From: an uncultured Lewinella sp.
GTDB taxonomy: Bacteria > Bacteroidota > Bacteroidia > Chitinophagales > Saprospiraceae
Assembly: GCA_913057725.1 (NCBI GenBank)
Contig: CAJXOS010000038.1
Coordinates: 1-47,451 of the forward strand
Direction of reading: 5' to 3'
Length of the DNA: 47,451 nucleotides
The number at the start of each line of letters is the position of its first letter. The stretch's first letter is position 1. The translations under genes and the position numbers were made by a program. The notes under the pieces were generated by a model. The model had not been told where the DNA came from. It was given only the letters and a program-made list of their open reading frames with translations, and ran no database searches. Positions 9,658-17,352 of the stretch are shown here, piece by piece.

Positions 9658-12600
9658 GTGAAACATCTTATTCCATATTTCATTCAGCAACGCCACCTGG
9701 CTGGCGAAAAGCATGGTGTATTCACTGCTTTCACGCTGTTTGTGGATCTAAAAGGTTTCACGCCGCTTACGGAAGGCTTAATGCGAGAAGGGACATCAGG
9801 AGCAGAGGAGCTGTCTAATATTCTCAACGAGATCTTCGACCCGCTCATTCGCTTAGTCTATGCTCGTGGCGGTTATATCCCTTACTTCGCCGGTGATGCT
9901 TTCACTGCTATTTTTCCTGCTAACGACGAACGCCAAAGTGCGGAAGCACTTATTCAGACGGCGGCCATGGCGCGTGCGTTGTTCCAACGACGTGAGAACC
10001 GATTCGGTAAGTTTACCATCGGGCTCAAGTTTGGACTGAGCTATGGTGAAGTTGAATGGGGAATAGTGGGCGCTGAGCGCAGGAGCTTTTATTTTCGAGG
10101 TCAACCGATCGATAGTTGTGCGTACTGCCAAACATTGGCAGAGAACGAGCACATTGTAGTAGACGGTTCTCTACTTGCACTACTTACCGATAATAGTATT
10201 GAACTGGCACCAGTTGGTGAAGATGCTTATCGAGTGATTAGTCCTATTGAGATCAAAGGTTTTCCTCCACCGCTAGAATGTGATGAGCTAACGCGTGATG
10301 CGGCACTCGCTTTTCTACCAGAATCAGTCGTTGATTATAAGCAAGAAGGAGAGTTTCGTCCGGTGGTGACTATCTTTTTCTCTTTCACTGGAATTGACAA
10401 CCACGAAGAGCTGGAAGAATTTGCTGACATCGTCCTACAGCAAACAGATATCTTCTCAGGCTATTTCAAAGAGATTGATTTCGGGGATAAGGGGGGATTG
10501 ATGACCATCTTTTTTGGAGCCCCAGTGGCTTTTGAAAACAATGTAGATCGAGCCCTGGAATTCCTTACAAGCCTTCGCGAACAGTTGCGTCCTACTCAGG
10601 AAAAACATGATTGGCGTTTCCGTGCCGGGATGACAGTAGGTACCGCCTATACGGGTATTGTGGGCGGCTATGAACGATGCCAATATGCTTGTGTGGGTAA
10701 CCGAGTCAACTTAGCATCTCGCCTGATGACAAATGCAGAATGGGGCGAATTCTTTGTAGATGAAGAGATTCAAAAAGCGAGTAGTTTCCGCTTTTTGCAT
10801 ACCGGAAATATCAAGTACAAGGGTATTAAAGGCAACGTGCCTACCTTCAAGTTGTTGGGCCGTAACTTCAATGTCAAGCCGACCTACTCTGGGCGCTTAA
10901 TTGCTCGAGAGGAGGAATTGGTACAGCTGGTTGACTTTGCCTCACCGCTTTACGAAAACAAAAATGCCGGACTGGTTTATGTTTTTGGCGAAGCTGGAGT
11001 CGGGAAGAGCCGGATGACGTTTGAAATGCGCAAGGCACTGCAGGAGGGCGAAAAGCTCCAATGGTTCATTTGCCAGGCGGATCAAATTTTGCACAAGCCC
11101 TTTAATCCGTTTTTATACTTTTTGCATAACTACTTCGAGCAGTCGCCAGAAGAAGCCAGCTTCACTAATCGAGCAAACTTCGAAACGCGTTTCAAGCTAC
11201 TCGTAGAGCAATTATATATCCAAGGCTCAGAAAGTGCAGAGCTAACCATTCGAGAACTAGAGCGGACCAAGCCCGTACTGATGGCTTTGGTAGGCTTACA
11301 CACCGAGAGTAATAGCCTTTGGGAGCAGCTAGATGCGAAGGGGCGCTATCAGAATAGCATTTGGGCTATAATCAATCTGTTCCTTGCTGAGAGCCAGTTG
11401 AAGCCCTTGATTATTGAGCTGGAAGACAGCCACTGGTTAGATGATAGCTCAGCAGAACTTTTGCATGAGCTGGTGCGTCAAATGCCGCACTATCCAATAT
11501 TGTTACTGATTACCTCGCGATATAGCGATGAGGGAACCAAGCCTTATCCGCTGCCACCAGTAGTGGCGCAACGATTAGAGCTTCCTTATCTTGAGATTGA
11601 CCTCAATACCCTTCCGGAAGAGGGGGTCCGTTCGTTTGCCGAAACCCTACTGGGTGGACCGATTTCAGAAGCATTTCTGGCATTGTTGCTACGGACGACA
11701 AATAACAATCCGTTCTACCTGGAGCAAATCCTGGAGTTCTTCACCGAAAGTGATGTGCTGGATCAAGAGGGAGATCAATGGACTATTAAGGACGAAAATG
11801 TCAAGCTTTCCAACTCGATTAATGCCATTCTAACCGCGCGTATCGATCGACTTTCCGAACAAGTGCGGGAAACGGTAAAGGCAGCAGCAGTTATTGGAAG
11901 GGAGTTTGAGGTGCCGATCCTGAGTGAGGTGATGCGTTCGCAAGAGAACTTCGCCGACCGTCCAGGTTACGCACTCAAGCAGGAGATTGAAACAGCTGAG
12001 CAAGTGCAGATTTGGATGGCGATGAATGAGCTCCGCTACATCTTCCGTCATAGTTTACTACGCGAAGCTGTTTATAGTATGCAGCTCAATACGCGCTTGA
12101 AACAACTCCATAAGCTAATAGCAGAAGCTATTGAGAAGCTCTATGCTTGGCAGTTGGAGACGCGCTATGTTGATCTCGCTTTTCACTATGAGCAGGCTGG
12201 TGTTTTTGATAAAACCTGTGAGTATCTGCGTAAAGCAGCTGATTATGCTCGAGGTAACTATCAGAACCAGTTGGCCCTTGAATACTACGAGAAGTTACTG
12301 CATTACCTGGGAGCCCAGGCAGATAGCGCAGATGAGATTAAGACCCACCTGAAGCGGGGTAAACTGCTGCTGCTAATTGGTAATTGGCAGGAGAGTGAAG
12401 AGGCCTTTAGACGTGCCCTTCAGTTGGCCAAGAGTTCTCGTGATGTAGTAATGATTGGTGAGAGTAATAATCACTTAGGACACCTCCTGCTTCTGCGCGG
12501 TGAATATGATCAGGCGGCCCATTACTTGAAGATTGCAGCAGGTCTCTTTGAATCAGTTGACGACCGTACTGGATACGCAATGGTTAATGGGCACTTGGGT

Positions 12601-13668
12601 AATCTCCACCTCCGCTTGGGAGAATATCCCGAGGCGAAGGAGTGTTTCCAACGAAGCATAAAAGGAGGGTATGTAGCAGGTGCTACTAGTGGTAGCGCAC
12701 AAATTGTAGCTAACCTGGCCCTAACTCATATGAACCTGGGTGAGCTCGAAGAAGGTATCCGAGTTGTCAACGAACAACTGCCGCTACATCGAGATCGAAA
12801 CGATAAACAGGGAATGGCTACCCTATTGGTCAACCTTGGTATCGTACAGTATGACAAGGGGGATTATGATGGAGTTGCTAAGAGTTATGAAGAGGGCTTG
12901 CAACTGTCAGAGGAGCTAGGCAACAAACAGCTTGTATCCATCGCTTTAGGGTCTCTTGGCTTAGTTATCCAACAGCAAGGTGACTATGATCGGGCGATGA
13001 AGTTGTTCCGCCGTGATCATGAAATCACCGAAGAATTAGGCGACAAGCAAGGCATCGCAATTGCTTTGGGCTTGATTGGCGACTTAATGAAGCTTAAAGG
13101 AGATTTCTACCCCGCTATCGAGTACATGCAGAAGAACCTCATGATGTGCGAAGAATTGGGGTACCAAAAAGGCATTGCCAAGGCAGTAAATACCCTGGGA
13201 GATATCTTCTACTTCACAGGAGAATACGAACGGAGTATTCACTTCTATGATCGCGCAATCGAAGTGACGCGCAAAATCAACCAGAAGACAGTGCTATGCT
13301 CGAGCTTGATAGAAAAAGGCCTAGTCCTGATCAAAATGCGAGAGGTAGCAGACCTGTTGGTAGTAGAGCAAGAGGCAATGGCTTTAGCTAAGGAACTGGG
13401 TAATCCAGAATTGCTGTTTGAGGCACGCTGCCTAGAGATACGGGCGCTCCATATGCATGGTCGTACCAATGAGGCGCTGCTTCTTTTAGACGAGCTTTCG
13501 CAGAAAGATCTTACTACGGAACAGGAGGCGGAGGCAGCCTATATTCGCTACCGATTGTTGCCAGTGGATAAGGATGCTCAACAAAAAGCGATCCTTCTTT
13601 TTACGGAGCTTTACACAGCTACTCCGCAGTACTTATACAAGCTCCGACTTCAGAAATTAGAGGCCTGA
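9658..13668 (+). CDS. Soluble-adenylyl-cyclase-like protein: two class III cyclase domains, NTPase, TPR
   Basis: A 1336-residue cytosolic protein starting at GTG 9658 (in-frame stop at 9628, no ATG between). Cyclase domain 1 (~24-190) keeps both metal-binding aspartates, D30 in VDLKGFT and D80 in FAGDAF, but its transition-state residues are replaced (DSCAYCQ). Cyclase domain 2 (~235-400) has lost the aspartates but keeps DKGG (K278) and VGNRVNLASRL (N351, R355). Next come an AAA-type NTPase (~412-700; Walker A GEAGVGKS at 444-451; Walker-B-like LIIELEDSHW) and about ten TPR repeats (~850-1300). The order C1-C2-NTPase-TPR and the split catalytic residues match mammalian soluble adenylyl cyclase. 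ATP to cAMP conversion at the pseudodimer interface is the inferred reaction. The gene has its own region and no partner. Confidence 0.85.
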   Translation: MKHLIPYFIQQRHLAGEKHGVFTAFTLFVDLKGFTPLTEGLMREGTSGAEELSNILNEIFDPLIRLVYARGGYIPYFAGDAFTAIFPANDERQSAEALIQTAAMARALFQRRENRFGKFTIGLKFGLSYGEVEWGIVGAERRSFYFRGQPIDSCAYCQTLAENEHIVVDGSLLALLTDNSIELAPVGEDAYRVISPIEIKGFPPPLECDELTRDAALAFLPESVVDYKQEGEFRPVVTIFFSFTGIDNHEELEEFADIVLQQTDIFSGYFKEIDFGDKGGLMTIFFGAPVAFENNVDRALEFLTSLREQLRPTQEKHDWRFRAGMTVGTAYTGIVGGYERCQYACVGNRVNLASRLMTNAEWGEFFVDEEIQKASSFRFLHTGNIKYKGIKGNVPTFKLLGRNFNVKPTYSGRLIAREEELVQLVDFASPLYENKNAGLVYVFGEAGVGKSRMTFEMRKALQEGEKLQWFICQADQILHKPFNPFLYFLHNYFEQSPEEASFTNRANFETRFKLLVEQLYIQGSESAELTIRELERTKPVLMALVGLHTESNSLWEQLDAKGRYQNSIWAIINLFLAESQLKPLIIELEDSHWLDDSSAELLHELVRQMPHYPILLLITSRYSDEGTKPYPLPPVVAQRLELPYLEIDLNTLPEEGVRSFAETLLGGPISEAFLALLLRTTNNNPFYLEQILEFFTESDVLDQEGDQWTIKDENVKLSNSINAILTARIDRLSEQVRETVKAAAVIGREFEVPILSEVMRSQENFADRPGYALKQEIETAEQVQIWMAMNELRYIFRHSLLREAVYSMQLNTRLKQLHKLIAEAIEKLYAWQLETRYVDLAFHYEQAGVFDKTCEYLRKAADYARGNYQNQLALEYYEKLLHYLGAQADSADEIKTHLKRGKLLLLIGNWQESEEAFRRALQLAKSSRDVVMIGESNNHLGHLLLLRGEYDQAAHYLKIAAGLFESVDDRTGYAMVNGHLGNLHLRLGEYPEAKECFQRSIKGGYVAGATSGSAQIVANLALTHMNLGELEEGIRVVNEQLPLHRDRNDKQGMATLLVNLGIVQYDKGDYDGVAKSYEEGLQLSEELGNKQLVSIALGSLGLVIQQQGDYDRAMKLFRRDHEITEELGDKQGIAIALGLIGDLMKLKGDFYPAIEYMQKNLMMCEELGYQKGIAKAVNTLGDIFYFTGEYERSIHFYDRAIEVTRKINQKTVLCSSLIEKGLVLIKMREVADLLVVEQEAMALAKELGNPELLFEARCLEIRALHMHGRTNEALLLLDELSQKDLTTEQEAEAAYIRYRLLPVDKDAQQKAILLFTELYTATPQYLYKLRLQKLEA

Positions 13669-13677
13669 TTTTTGGAC

Positions 13678-13708
13678 TTGACTCCTATTCTTAAACTTCC
13701 TACCTTTG
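13678..13708 (+). promoter_or_regulatory. Bacteroidota-type promoter of the ileS leader
   Basis: TTG at 13678-13680 is followed by exactly 20 bp and then TACCTTTG (13701-13708), a full match to the -7 element TAnnTTTG with the preferred spacing from the -33 TTG. The predicted transcription start is about 13712-13714, on or next to the leader peptide's AUG. Confidence 0.8.
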
Positions 13709-13713
13709 CCCTC

Positions 13714-13776
13714 ATGCAAAGACAACAGCATATAATTATTAGCATCATTATTATCAGTTCGCTACGCGATCTGTAG
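13714..13776 (+). CDS. ileS leader peptide, isoleucine-rich
   Basis: A 20-codon ORF, MQRQQHIIISIIIISSLRDL, with seven Ile codons in two runs (ATA ATT ATT, then ATC ATT ATT ATC), ending at TAG 13774-13776. It lies between a strong promoter and a terminator hairpin upstream of isoleucyl-tRNA synthetase, so the codon bias matches the amino acid handled by the downstream gene. The peptide itself is probably inert; its translation would sense charged tRNA-Ile. Its last codons (CTA CGC GAT CTG) form the 5' strand of the proposed antiterminator. No Shine-Dalgarno is possible if transcription starts at ~13713, so initiation would be nearly leaderless. Confidence 0.85.
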   Translation: MQRQQHIIISIIIISSLRDL

Positions 13777-13840
13777 GTGCTTGTTATTGTTGTTCAAAAA
13801 GCTCCGGCAGATTGCGTTCTGCCGGAGCTTTTTGTTTTGT
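13764..13840 (+). terminator. ileS attenuator: terminator with overlapping antiterminator
   Basis: The terminator arms AAAAAGCTCCGGCAG (13796-13810) and CTGCCGGAGCTTTTT (13819-13833) are perfectly complementary over 15 bp with an 8-nt loop and a U-rich tail. The competing helix pairs ACGCGATCTGT (13764-13774, end of the leader ORF) with GCAGATTGCGT (13807-13817, terminator left-arm end plus loop): 11 pairs including two G-U wobbles. A ribosome reaching the stop codon would mask 13764-13774 and allow termination. One stalled at the Ile codons would leave that strand free and allow read-through into ileS. Confidence 0.85.
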
Positions 13841-14010
13841 ACTTTTGCAGGTCTTTTTGCGTAATGCTATTAAAAAATCATCTTCTTTGATGACTTTGCG
13901 GGACAGCTAAGAGTCGTATCACTAGCGATTTATATTGAGCATTGATACTACTTATGCCTGAGGTTCATCCGCAACGATTATTAAAGAATTAACTACAAGG
14001 TACAGTACTC

Positions 14011-17000
14011 ATGTACAAGTCGTATAAGCAGTTAAATCTGCCGGAAATCGATCAGGAAATCCTACGCTTTTGGGATGAGAATGATGTCTTCGCCAAGAGT
14101 GTACAGGAACGCGATCCTGCCAAGACCTATGTTTTCTACGAGGGGCCACCTTCCGCGAATGGTCTGCCGGGTATTCACCACGTTATGGCACGCGCTATTA
14201 AGGATATTTTCTGCCGCTACCACACCTTGCTAGGTGAGCGAGTAGATCGTAAAGGCGGTTGGGATACCCACGGTCTGCCGATTGAATTGAGCGTGGAAAA
14301 GGAACTTGGTATTACCAAAGATGATATTGGCAAAACCATTACCGTAGACGAGTACAACCAGAAGTGCCGTGAAACGGTAATGCGCTATAAAGACATCTGG
14401 GACGACTTGACTCGTAAGATGGGGTACTGGGTAGACTTAGAGAACCCTTATATCACTTACGAAAACAGCTACATTGAGTCGGTTTGGTTCTTACTGCAGC
14501 GCCTGCATAGTAAGGGCTTGTTGTACAAAGGCTATACCATCCAGCCTTACTCGCCAGCTGCGGGTACAGGACTGAGCTCGCATGAGCTTAATATGCCAGG
14601 TGCATATAAGGAGATTCGGGATACATCGGCAGTAGCGCAATTTAAAATTCAGGATACGGAAAATGAGTACTTCCTAGCTTGGACCACTACTCCTTGGACG
14701 TTGCCATCCAATACAGCACTCGCGGTAGGGAAGAAGATCACTTATGTGAAGGTGAGTACATTCAATCGCTATACACAAGAGCCGATTAAGGTGATCATGG
14801 CTAAGGATCGTCTAAGTGCGTATTTCTCCGAGGCCAAGCCAGACATGCAACCAGAAGACGCTAAGCCTGGTAATAAGCCATATCCATACATTAAGGTTGT
14901 AGCAGAAATGACTGGCGCAGAATTGGCCGGTATGCGCTACACGCAACTGATGCCTTACGTTAAGCCAGAGGGTGATGCTTTCCGCGTTATTCTGGGCGAC
15001 TTCGTGAGTACCGATGACGGTACCGGTATCGTGCATATTGCTCCAACTTTCGGTGCAGACGATATGCGTGTGGCACGGGAAAATGATATCCCAGCCCTAT
15101 TGATCAAGGATGAATTTGGCAATCCTGCTCCATTGGTGAATAAGCAAGGAAAGTTTGTTGATGAGGTAACTGATTTTGCTGGTCGTTATGTGAAAGATTA
15201 CGGTCAGGAAGAAGAGCGCCCGACAGACGTAGATATTGTCATCAAGCTAAAAGAGGAGAACAAGCTTTTCCACTCTGAAAAGTACCTACACTCCTATCCG
15301 CACTGTTGGCGTACCGATCGCCCAGTACTTTATTATCCACTAGACAGTTGGTTTATCCGTGCTAGTGACTATAAAGAGCGGATGTTTGAGCTGAATAAGA
15401 CCATCAACTGGAAACCAGCGAGCACTGGTGAGGGGCGTTTTGGTAAGTGGCTAGAGAACCTTCAAGATTGGAACCTTAGTCGTTCTCGTTTCTGGGGTAT
15501 CCCATTACCAATCTGGCGTACAGAAGACGGTAAGCAAGAAAAATGCATCGGTTCTATACCTGAGCTAGAGCGGGAAGTGGCCAAAGCGAATGAAGCCTTA
15601 GGCTTAAATCAAGCTGTACCTAAGGATATTCACCGTCCATATATCGATGATGTTATTTTGGTAAGCGATGACGGCCAGGAGATGAAGCGCGAGTTAGACT
15701 TGATCGACGTATGGTTCGATTCTGGCTCGATGCCTTATGCACAGTGGGGACTTGATTATGATAAACTCGCTGCAGGTGATGAGCGACCATTCAAAGCGCC
15801 TTTTGATCAGAGCTACCCTGCCAACTTTATCGCAGAAGGTGTCGATCAAACGCGTGGTTGGTTCTACACCCTGCACGCCATTGCTGTAATGGCTTACGAT
15901 ACGGTTTCATTCAAGAATGTAGTATCAAATGGTTTGGTGCTCGACAAGAATGGCCAAAAGATGTCGAAGCGCTTGGGCAATGCTGTGAATCCTTTTGAGA
16001 CGTTAAGTCAGTACGGTGCGGATGCTACGCGTTGGTACATGATGGCTAATAGCGATCCATGGGATAACCTCAAGTTTGACCTGGAGGGTGTAGAAGAAGT
16101 GCGCCGGAAACTGTTTGGTACACTATTCAACACCTATGGCTTCTTTGCACTGTATGCTAATATTGACAAATGGAGCCCAGGTACTGGTACCAGCGTGCCA
16201 GTAGCGGAGCGCCCGGAGATTGACCGTTGGGTAATCTCTAAGTTGAATAGCCTGGTGAACGAAGTGCGCAAGCAGCTGGCCGATTATGAGCCGACCAAGG
16301 CTTGCCGTGCCATCGAGCACTTCGTTGATGCTCACCTGAGTAACTGGTATGTGCGCCTATGCCGCCGTCGATTCTGGAAGGGAGAGATGAACGCTGATAA
16401 GCAGGCAGCCTACGAGACGCTATATGAATGCTTGCTGACCACGGCACAGTTGATGTCGCCAGTAGCTCCGTTCTTCAGCGATTGGTTGTTCCAAAACTTA
16501 TCTGCCAGTGCGGATGAGACGGCAAAAGCCAATGACGCTCGTTTGCAGCATGAGTCGGTACACCTGACCTTATTGGCAGAAGGCAACGAAAGCCTGATCG
16601 ATGGTGATCTGGAACAACGTATGGACTATGCTCAGCGCATCTCGAGTTTGGTGCGGAGTATTCGTAAGAAGAACAGCATCGTCGTGCGCCAGCCACTTCA
16701 GAAAATTCTGCTGCCGGTGTTGGATGAATCCTTCGAGCACCACGTAGAGGCAGTGAAAGGATTGATTCTGGCAGAAGTTAACGTAAAGGAAATTGCTTAC
16801 TTACGCGATGACGATGAAGGTTTCTTGAAGAAGCGCATCAAGCCAAACTTCAAGACACTTGGTAAGCGTCTGGGTAAGAACATGAAAGCGGCAGCACAAG
16901 CTATTGGCCAGTTTGGCCAGGAAGACATTGCGGCGCTGGAGCGTTCCGGCAGCTACACCTTGGTAGTAGGTGAGGAACAGTTTGAACTTGGTTTGGAAGA

Positions 17001-17352
17001 TTTCGAAATCACAACGGAGGATATCCCTGGTTGGAAGGTGGCTTCTGATGGCAGCCTAACAGTAGCTTTGGACTTGACGATTACGGAAGAATTGGCGGCC
17101 GAAGGTATGGCCCGTGAATTGGTGAATCGTATCCAAAACATCCGTAAGGGCAAAGATTTTGACGTAACTGACCGGATCAAGGTGACGATCAGTGAAGACG
17201 CACCGATTGGCAAAGCAGTTGATAGCTTTGGTGATTACATCAAAGGAGAAGTGTTGGCAGATGAGCTGAATGTGGCTGCTGCCAATGGTGGAGAAAGCGT
17301 TGATTTGCCGGGAGATATCAAAGCAGATATCAAGGTAGAACTCGTCGGCTAA
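14011..17352 (+). CDS. ileS: Isoleucyl-tRNA synthetase, type 2 (eukaryote-like)
   Basis: Charges tRNA-Ile with isoleucine in the cytosol. The 1113-residue class I synthetase has the catalytic entry EGPPSANGLPGIHHVMAR at ~44-61. The usual HIGH signature reads GIHH (residues 54-57), so its first and third residues are exchanged. The editing domain lies between ~200 and 400, and AWTTTPWTLPSNTALAV is its typical threonine-rich segment. KMSKR is at 650-654, followed by the helical anticodon-binding domain and a C-terminal DUF5915-type extension (~950-1113). The size and motifs place it with the eukaryote-like IleRS2 branch, which is intrinsically tolerant of mupirocin. It is preceded by the Ile leader peptide and attenuator and is probably monocistronic. 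Confidence 0.98.
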   Translation: MYKSYKQLNLPEIDQEILRFWDENDVFAKSVQERDPAKTYVFYEGPPSANGLPGIHHVMARAIKDIFCRYHTLLGERVDRKGGWDTHGLPIELSVEKELGITKDDIGKTITVDEYNQKCRETVMRYKDIWDDLTRKMGYWVDLENPYITYENSYIESVWFLLQRLHSKGLLYKGYTIQPYSPAAGTGLSSHELNMPGAYKEIRDTSAVAQFKIQDTENEYFLAWTTTPWTLPSNTALAVGKKITYVKVSTFNRYTQEPIKVIMAKDRLSAYFSEAKPDMQPEDAKPGNKPYPYIKVVAEMTGAELAGMRYTQLMPYVKPEGDAFRVILGDFVSTDDGTGIVHIAPTFGADDMRVARENDIPALLIKDEFGNPAPLVNKQGKFVDEVTDFAGRYVKDYGQEEERPTDVDIVIKLKEENKLFHSEKYLHSYPHCWRTDRPVLYYPLDSWFIRASDYKERMFELNKTINWKPASTGEGRFGKWLENLQDWNLSRSRFWGIPLPIWRTEDGKQEKCIGSIPELEREVAKANEALGLNQAVPKDIHRPYIDDVILVSDDGQEMKRELDLIDVWFDSGSMPYAQWGLDYDKLAAGDERPFKAPFDQSYPANFIAEGVDQTRGWFYTLHAIAVMAYDTVSFKNVVSNGLVLDKNGQKMSKRLGNAVNPFETLSQYGADATRWYMMANSDPWDNLKFDLEGVEEVRRKLFGTLFNTYGFFALYANIDKWSPGTGTSVPVAERPEIDRWVISKLNSLVNEVRKQLADYEPTKACRAIEHFVDAHLSNWYVRLCRRRFWKGEMNADKQAAYETLYECLLTTAQLMSPVAPFFSDWLFQNLSASADETAKANDARLQHESVHLTLLAEGNESLIDGDLEQRMDYAQRISSLVRSIRKKNSIVVRQPLQKILLPVLDESFEHHVEAVKGLILAEVNVKEIAYLRDDDEGFLKKRIKPNFKTLGKRLGKNMKAAAQAIGQFGQEDIAALERSGSYTLVVGEEQFELGLEDFEITTEDIPGWKVASDGSLTVALDLTITEELAAEGMARELVNRIQNIRKGKDFDVTDRIKVTISEDAPIGKAVDSFGDYIKGEVLADELNVAAANGGESVDLPGDIKADIKVELVG

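Follow-up and report, generated by a model that had tools for sequence, protein, structure and literature searches.

Comparative analysis of a predicted isoleucine leader-peptide attenuator upstream of ileS in a family of Bacteroidota

Results

The leader region of ileS

The window analyzed here is a stretch of 47,451 nucleotides (nt) from an uncultured Lewinella sp. (GTDB family Saprospiraceae, phylum Bacteroidota; contig CAJXOS010000038.1 of assembly GCA_913057725.1), and the subject of this report is the leader that precedes its isoleucyl-tRNA synthetase gene, ileS. This gene occupies positions 14011-17352 of the forward strand and encodes a product of 1113 residues which scored above the equivalog cut-off of NCBIfam TIGR00392 (973.2 versus 621.4 bits) and matched Pfam PF00133, PF08264 and PF19302. 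The product also aligned along most of its sequence with the MupA and MupB models, at scores under their cut-offs, which makes its response to mupirocin uncertain. The IleS of Lewinella cohaerens (DSM 23179; region L001, which has the element described below), placed by the NCBI taxonomy in Lewinellaceae, Saprospirales, is 85% identical to that of the window. The 5' neighbor of ileS is a large gene (9658-13668) with guanylate cyclase, AAA and TPR domains, oriented like ileS; 45 nt separate the end of its stop codon from the downstream leader ATG. Between the two genes lie, in this order, a promoter-like site (P1), a leader open reading frame (ORF, 13714-13776) and a terminator (13795-13834), all on the forward strand.

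P1 is composed of a -33 element, TTG (13678-13680), found 20 bp before a -7 box TACCTTTG (13701-13708) that follows the consensus TAnnTTTG, with a predicted transcription start near 13713. The leader ORF, MQRQQHIIISIIIISSLRDL, counts 20 codons from the ATG at 13714 to the TAG stop codon at 13774-13776. Seven of them specify isoleucine, in two runs (13732-13740 and 13744-13755) separated by a single serine codon, the whole series (13732-13755) reading ATA ATT ATT, AGC, ATC ATT ATT ATC. A previous sequence-only reading of this DNA had described such a promoter and a 20-codon ORF with seven Ile codons in two runs, and both were recovered at these positions.

The terminator consists of 17 perfect pairs (13795-13811 with 13818-13834) around a 6-nt loop and is followed by a T tract. 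The earlier reading had proposed 15 pairs at 13796-13833; the perfect hairpin and its U tract stand, whereas the extent was off by at most one base at each end. Four strands were distinguished in the predicted transcript. Strand 1 (13732-13746) covers Ile codons and pairs with 13776-13790 to form a protector helix (1:2), around an inner hairpin (13755-13762/13766-13773), as indicated by folding and by the partner-swap test described below. Strand 2 (13764-13782), made of the leader end and of the bases after the stop, is overlapped at 13776-13782 by the 3' side of helix 1:2; by folding and covariation, it also forms an antiterminator (2:3) with strand 3 (13795-13817), which comprises the 5' arm and the loop (13812-13817) of the terminator and of which 13799-13817 takes part in this second pairing. 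Strand 4 (13818-13834) is the 3' arm of the terminator and ends in the U tract (TTTTTG, then TTTTG). The antiterminator includes the 11-bp helix of the sequence-only reading (13764-13774 with 13807-13817, two of the pairs being G-U), continued by 13776-13777 with 13804-13805 and by 13779-13782 with 13799-13802. Its 5' strand, which the same reading had located in the last leader codons, spans the stop codon. Two features were absent from that reading, namely helix 1:2 and a second promoter-like -7 box (P2), TACTTTTG at 13840-13847, which lies 163 nt before ileS and has no TTG at 19-21 bp in the window.

Distribution among relatives

IleS was matched in 197 of the 199 family genomes searched. 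The comparison was based on 130 ileS upstream regions of this GTDB family (30 loci and 100 others taken roughly by match score), from which the lowest-scoring matches and some regions truncated at contig ends were omitted. Candidates were required to show at least four occurrences of one amino acid within eight codons of an ORF of 8-45 codons, with a stop codon 5-60 nt before a terminator. This rule retrieved an Ile-run ORF with a terminator in 56 of the 130 regions. For other amino acids it yielded three regions for Ser and one each for Pro, Asn, Thr, His and Gly. Three dinucleotide-shuffled sets of the 130 regions gave 0, 1 and 1 Ile-run matches, and shuffling just the 200 nt before the 56 real terminators left between 0 and 4 matches in 20 rounds. 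With region L113 added by hand, the total reached 57 leaders; the ORF choice in L079 was also hand-corrected. A first, looser rule had likewise retained 56 regions, as a different set that included false cases such as L048 and L097.

The 57 leader peptides have medians of 20 residues and 6 Ile, with a core that is typically NIIISIII, the commonest pattern in the alignment (A1) being IIISIII. Within the second Ile run, the authors chose three aligned codons, at which 158 of 171 cells hold Ile codons (ATT 130, ATC 14, ATA 14) and none holds ATG, a third-base variation that fits, indirectly, translated Ile codons. The initial codon of the run ends in G in four of the 57 rows, as ATG in L122 and as codons that are not Ile-like in the other three. 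The first Ile codon (13732-13734 in the window) is ATA in 39 of the 57 leaders; elsewhere, ATA accounts for 8 of 161 Ile codons in three genes of the window and for 15% in 30 ileS genes.

The element was present in 24 of the 30 closest regions, and 44 of 47 within-genus pairs agreed in presence (genera having been copied by hand). It was found in none of 60 ileS regions from outside the family, 12 of which have any terminator and a few of which are near-duplicates; 40 of these came from other families of the order, and 20 were named loci judged to be outsiders from their title and lower identity. The ileS leader element is a family-level trait, not found elsewhere in the Bacteroidota regions examined. 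Its upstream neighbor varies, the longest upstream ORF being divergent at 14 of 24 leader loci, so that the terminator does not simply belong to the upstream gene. Homologues among the loci back 10 of these 14; a longest ORF may be spurious. The ilvC gene was matched in 49 of the 57 leader genomes versus 46 of the 73 others (Fisher p = 0.005, uncorrected for kinship).

Similar hairpins without an Ile ORF were seen under the looser rule in L043, L067, L102 and L135. The Ile leader of L043 was recovered by the later rule, the hairpin of L102 lies at the edge of the sequence stretch obtained, and L135 shows just a weak Ile run (MLPIAIYPQIRIR). The hairpins of L067 and L135 are perhaps decaying copies of the element. 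Strong terminators without an Ile ORF also occur 55-92 nt before ileS in L007, L017, L009 and L034; those of L007, L009 and L034 closely follow the end of the upstream gene and are probably plain terminators. One genome gave two full-length IleS matches (G163:C68 and G163:C126), perhaps through contamination (5%).

Three competing helices

Terminator and antiterminator both covary. For the terminator (3:4), 94.0% of the cells of the 57-sequence alignment are paired versus 36.1-59.2% when the arms are slid, 10 of 16 pairs display double changes, and none of 500 shuffles reached it on any of the five measures. The core of the antiterminator links the leader end (consensus CAATCTG) to the 5' arm of the terminator (CAGATTG) by ten pairs. 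It is paired in 81.0% of cells versus 30.0-42.5% when slid by 1-3 columns, and it contains 51 doubly changed cells versus 17.5 in shuffled alignments, a value attained by none of 500 shuffles.

Helix 1:2 joins the Ile codons to the stretch after the stop, typically ATTAGCAT with ATGCTAAT. Compensation can be read in individual leaders: where the middle codon has become AAC the partner can be GTTAAT (L046), and in L169 AGTAGC faces GCTACT. When partners were swapped between leaders, the own partner was better in both helices, with -7.61 versus -5.55 kcal/mol for 1:2 and -17.31 versus -13.35 kcal/mol for 2:3 (0 of 10000 permutations in each case). Both results also held when each genus was represented by a single genome (n = 42), and the one for 1:2 held in the 32 leaders without TTAGCAT as well. 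Against a reversed partner of preserved composition, the real one was better in 46 of the 57 leaders for 1:2 and in all 57 for 2:3.

Folding was repeated with ribosome footprints of assumed size. With a ribosome at the Ile codons, 2:3 formed, with at least eight strand-3 pairs in 56 of 57 leaders; with a ribosome at the stop codon, 3:4 formed in 57 of 57. The full leader RNA of the window folds as 1:2 plus 3:4. Its RNA free from 13751, before strand 4, folds as 2:3 (-24.0 kcal/mol), and free from 13788 as 3:4 (-31.2 kcal/mol). If no ribosome is present and strand 4 is still missing, 2:3 and not 1:2 is predicted as the minimum, so that an untranslated leader could terminate only by virtue of the order in which its helices fold. 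A pseudoknot with the strand order A-B-A'-B' was considered and rejected: the folds show that A' and the leader end are common to 1:2 and 2:3, which makes these helices alternatives. Helices 1:2 and 2:3 of the trp leader are likewise alternatives.

Promoter-like boxes before and after the terminator

A TAnnTTTG box within 90 nt before the leader ATG was recognized in 35 of the 57 genomes, versus 4.0 +/- 1.9 in shuffled sequences, and 26 of these 35 have a TTG at 19-21 bp. Between box and ATG, two size classes of gap were seen, 4-8 nt in 13 genomes and at least 16 nt in 22. In a study on Flavobacterium psychrophilum, the promoter box is placed at -12 to -5 and leaderless mRNAs are a small minority of 5.5% (PMC9723704). 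A box at that position with a gap of 4-8 nt predicts a 5' untranslated region of 0-4 nt, and of about 1 nt in the window.

A box of the same type follows the terminator in 44 of the 57 genomes (shuffled 4.9 +/- 2.0), starting at most 15 nt past the terminator end in 37 of the 44. A TTG at 19-21 bp accompanies it in 15 of the 44. The corresponding site in strand 4 reads TTG in 17 of 19 genomes with a spacing of 18-21 bp versus 15 of 37 others (p = 0.0005, uncorrected for kinship; 56 of the 57 rows, L151 being omitted because of a gap). Among the 73 regions without leader, 60 have a similar box within 200 nt of ileS.

Other genes and RNA families

No run of cognate codons was seen before eight other synthetase genes of close relatives (nine ValS, nine LeuS and three MetS loci from up to nine genomes, and six each for ThrS, SerS, ProS, GlyS and PheS), some of which have an upstream hairpin. 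Gene names in this set were read from Pfam matches and N-termini, and some start codons may be misplaced. One (L184) of its four IleS loci carries the Ile leader. A general rule by which many synthetase genes would have leaders is unsupported by this set. In the genome of the window itself, no Ile-run leader was found before ilvC, where a plain terminator lies some 190 nt ahead of the gene, nor directly before ilvD.

Model R1, built from the ileS leaders, matched its own genome at the ileS site only. Over 198 genomes from the order, every IleS locus in the 30 matches obtained belonged to the family; over 395 genomes of the phylum, no IleS was present in the 26 loci retrieved (L231-L256), with strict filters that may lose weak matches. 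Those R1 matches that were viewed beyond the family are leaders of other genes or plain terminators, and the viewed phylum loci with a leader ORF or codon run precede ilvE-, thrA- or hisG-like genes, as named from N-termini. Among these, two tandem units of an Ile/Val-type leader and a terminator precede a branched-chain aminotransferase (ilvE-like) gene in L232 (G610:C29) and L234 (G427:C121), and single units occur in L231, L233 and L241. Other likely attenuators display a Thr/Ile run before an aspartokinase-like gene (L245), His codon runs before hisG-like genes (L246 and L247) and Ile/Val-rich ORFs before ilvD-like genes (L217 and L330).

No Rfam family was assigned to the ileS leader, at gathering scores over the window or up to E = 1 over 13600-14100. 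The best match over the leader, RF00506 (Thr_leader), reached 29 bits over positions 1-118 of 118 (E 0.0018 per 501 bases), against a gathering score of 55 for membership.

Discussion

A predicted attenuator for isoleucyl-tRNA synthetase

The leader combines an ORF rich in cognate codons, an intrinsic terminator, an antiterminator (2:3) over the stop codon and a protector helix (1:2). Helices 1:2, 2:3 and 3:4 are predicted to compete for the same bases, which would be the full logic of classical attenuators. Comparison of relatives, which the sequence-only reading had proposed, revealed a kept Ile-run ORF, a kept terminator and compensatory changes in the alternative helix. The observation made in that reading is confirmed and its interpretation as an attenuator of ileS is supported by the comparative data. 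The ileS leader is best regarded as a real and conserved attenuator of known kind, most likely a working one, and we consider it highly probable that it is a classical transcription attenuator of the ribosome-mediated type, through which a shortage of charged tRNA-Ile would lead to more isoleucyl-tRNA synthetase.

According to this model, RNA polymerase would start at P1, with a ribosome translating the leader ORF behind it. Given sufficient Ile-tRNA, this ribosome would reach the stop codon and cover strand 2, 3:4 would pair and transcription would end before ileS. With scarce Ile-tRNA, it would stall on the Ile codons and cover strand 1, 2:3 would pair and polymerase would read through into ileS. 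This dependence on ribosome position had been put forward in the sequence-only reading, and folding with the assumed footprints agreed with it. Were no ribosome present, strand 2 would be sequestered in 1:2 and transcripts would terminate by default, yet in the window RNA 2:3 is predicted to be the more stable once strand 3 is made. The essential IleS is probably also made at a basal, Ile-independent level from P2, located at the terminator or immediately past it.

Several observations weigh against this interpretation. More than half of the family regions (73 of 130) lack the element, and P1 was recognized in just 35 of the 57 genomes that have it. Hairpins kept without Ile codons, which had been named beforehand as a case against attenuation, are rare but exist, since L067 has no Ile run and L135 a weak one. 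For the antiterminator, 49 of 500 shuffles attained the count of doubly changed pairs taken alone. The weakest component is helix 1:2: a reversed partner did at least as well in 11 of the 57 leaders, its mean z against shuffled post-stop stretches was -1.33, and z was below -1 in just 33 of 57. Individual members are also weak, L151 being nearly without a 2:3 duplex and L116 nearly without a 1:2 duplex, and neither the shuffle nor the swap controls take the tree into account. Finally, given the P2-like boxes, ileS transcripts might in large part or entirely begin past the attenuator.

Alternative explanations

This last point leads to the most serious rival, in which the attenuator exists but matters little, ileS being transcribed mainly from P2 and the P1 leader RNA being a minor or relic input. 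The promoter-like box after the terminator (44 of 57 genomes, 37 of them within 15 nt of its end), the TTG of strand 4 at suitable spacings (17 of 19 versus 15 of 37 in the 56 rows) and the similar box in 60 of the 73 leader-less regions all speak for it. Three helices and a series of Ile codons that look kept by selection are unlike a relic, and P2 has no TTG at 19-21 bp in the window and has one at just 15 of the 44 boxes; we regard this explanation as rather unlikely, though a serious contender. The same boxes indicate that ileS probably keeps a basal promoter bypassing the attenuator, which would then probably control only part of ileS transcription. P2 may be the older ileS promoter, to which the attenuated P1 was added later. 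A bolder possibility, which we advance tentatively and would not bet on at even chances, is that the same DNA serves as attenuator terminator and as housekeeping promoter of ileS: the attenuator would have been built onto an existing promoter, strand 4 would encode the -33 box of P2, and an Ile-sensing input from P1, with a nearly leaderless leader ORF in about one third of the recognizable cases, would be stacked on a constant one. Under this proposal, one stem position would be C for pairing or T for the promoter, T leaving a G-U pair.

The remaining explanations are far less probable. That the hairpin merely terminates the upstream gene, with an Ile-rich frame arising by chance in AT-rich DNA, could appeal to the layout of the window, where the upstream gene shares the orientation of the leader ORF and has the end of its stop codon 45 nt away from the leader start. 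This is strongly disfavored, and indeed the least credible of all, in view of the shuffled sets (0-1 of 130), of the other amino acids (at most 3 of 130), of the covariation of the antiterminator and of the divergent upstream ORFs at 14 of 24 loci, 10 of them with homologues among the loci. Direct binding of tRNA or of another ligand by a T-box or similar RNA, with an untranslated leader, has precedents since ileS is under T-box control elsewhere, at the translation level in Actinobacteria according to PMC1262725. The window gave no T-box match at gathering scores, nor did 13600-14100 up to E = 1, and the conserved part is an Ile codon run whose third bases vary without Met at the three aligned codons, all of which renders this option very improbable. 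An equally slim chance is granted to a small RNA or peptide acting elsewhere, with ileS as a mere neighbor. An RNA of about 120 nt would indeed be made and ended at each termination, but R1 matches its own genome before ileS only, and the place before ileS is kept in 57 genomes while the upstream neighbor varies.

Relation to known systems

To our knowledge, classical attenuation is mostly known from biosynthesis operons, the synthetase cases familiar to us being pheST and, as a prediction, hisS. The pheST attenuator of Escherichia coli resembles the ileS leader in its cognate-rich leader peptide, its alternative hairpins and its control of the cognate synthetase; it differs in sensing Phe instead of Ile and in belonging to Gammaproteobacteria. 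Its terminator is not known to contain a promoter. For hisS/hisZ of bacilli, a group also using T-boxes, PMC2965389 reports predicted attenuation by a His leader peptide. These genes are similar to ileS in the predicted leader-peptide attenuation of a synthetase gene and differ in the amino acid (His) and the phylum (Firmicutes).

Within Bacteroidota, leader-peptide attenuators of amino-acid biosynthesis operons are described for F. psychrophilum in PMC9723704. They share phylum and logic with the ileS leader, and R1 picks up ilvE-type leaders such as MNRFLNIIISIVIISSPPS; unlike it, the ilvE-, thrA- and hisG-like leaders precede biosynthesis genes and not a synthetase. A 2004 survey by Vitreschak and others reportedly covers some biosynthesis operons of Bacteroidetes. 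In Firmicutes, ileS is usually controlled by T-boxes. These concern the same gene and the same signal, uncharged tRNA-Ile, but they bind the tRNA directly and are not known to involve a leader peptide. No earlier report of a leader-peptide attenuator of ileS was found in the open-licence literature, and one may exist elsewhere. What appears to be new here is an attenuator of known kind on ileS, a gene for which no such report was found.

Beside this attenuator, the proposed arrangement of a promoter within a terminator deserves attention of its own. The 57 aligned sequences supply the material for a new RNA family, and the system makes two matters testable, namely the coupling of transcription and translation in this phylum and the way in which basal amounts of an essential enzyme are maintained when its gene lies behind a terminator. 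Bacteroidota starts lack Shine-Dalgarno sequences, according to PMC9723704, and in such a phylum the leader would serve as a ready-made sensor of isoleucine starvation. A conserved Ile attenuator on ileS in one family of Bacteroidota would show that a simple device arose where Firmicutes use T-boxes.

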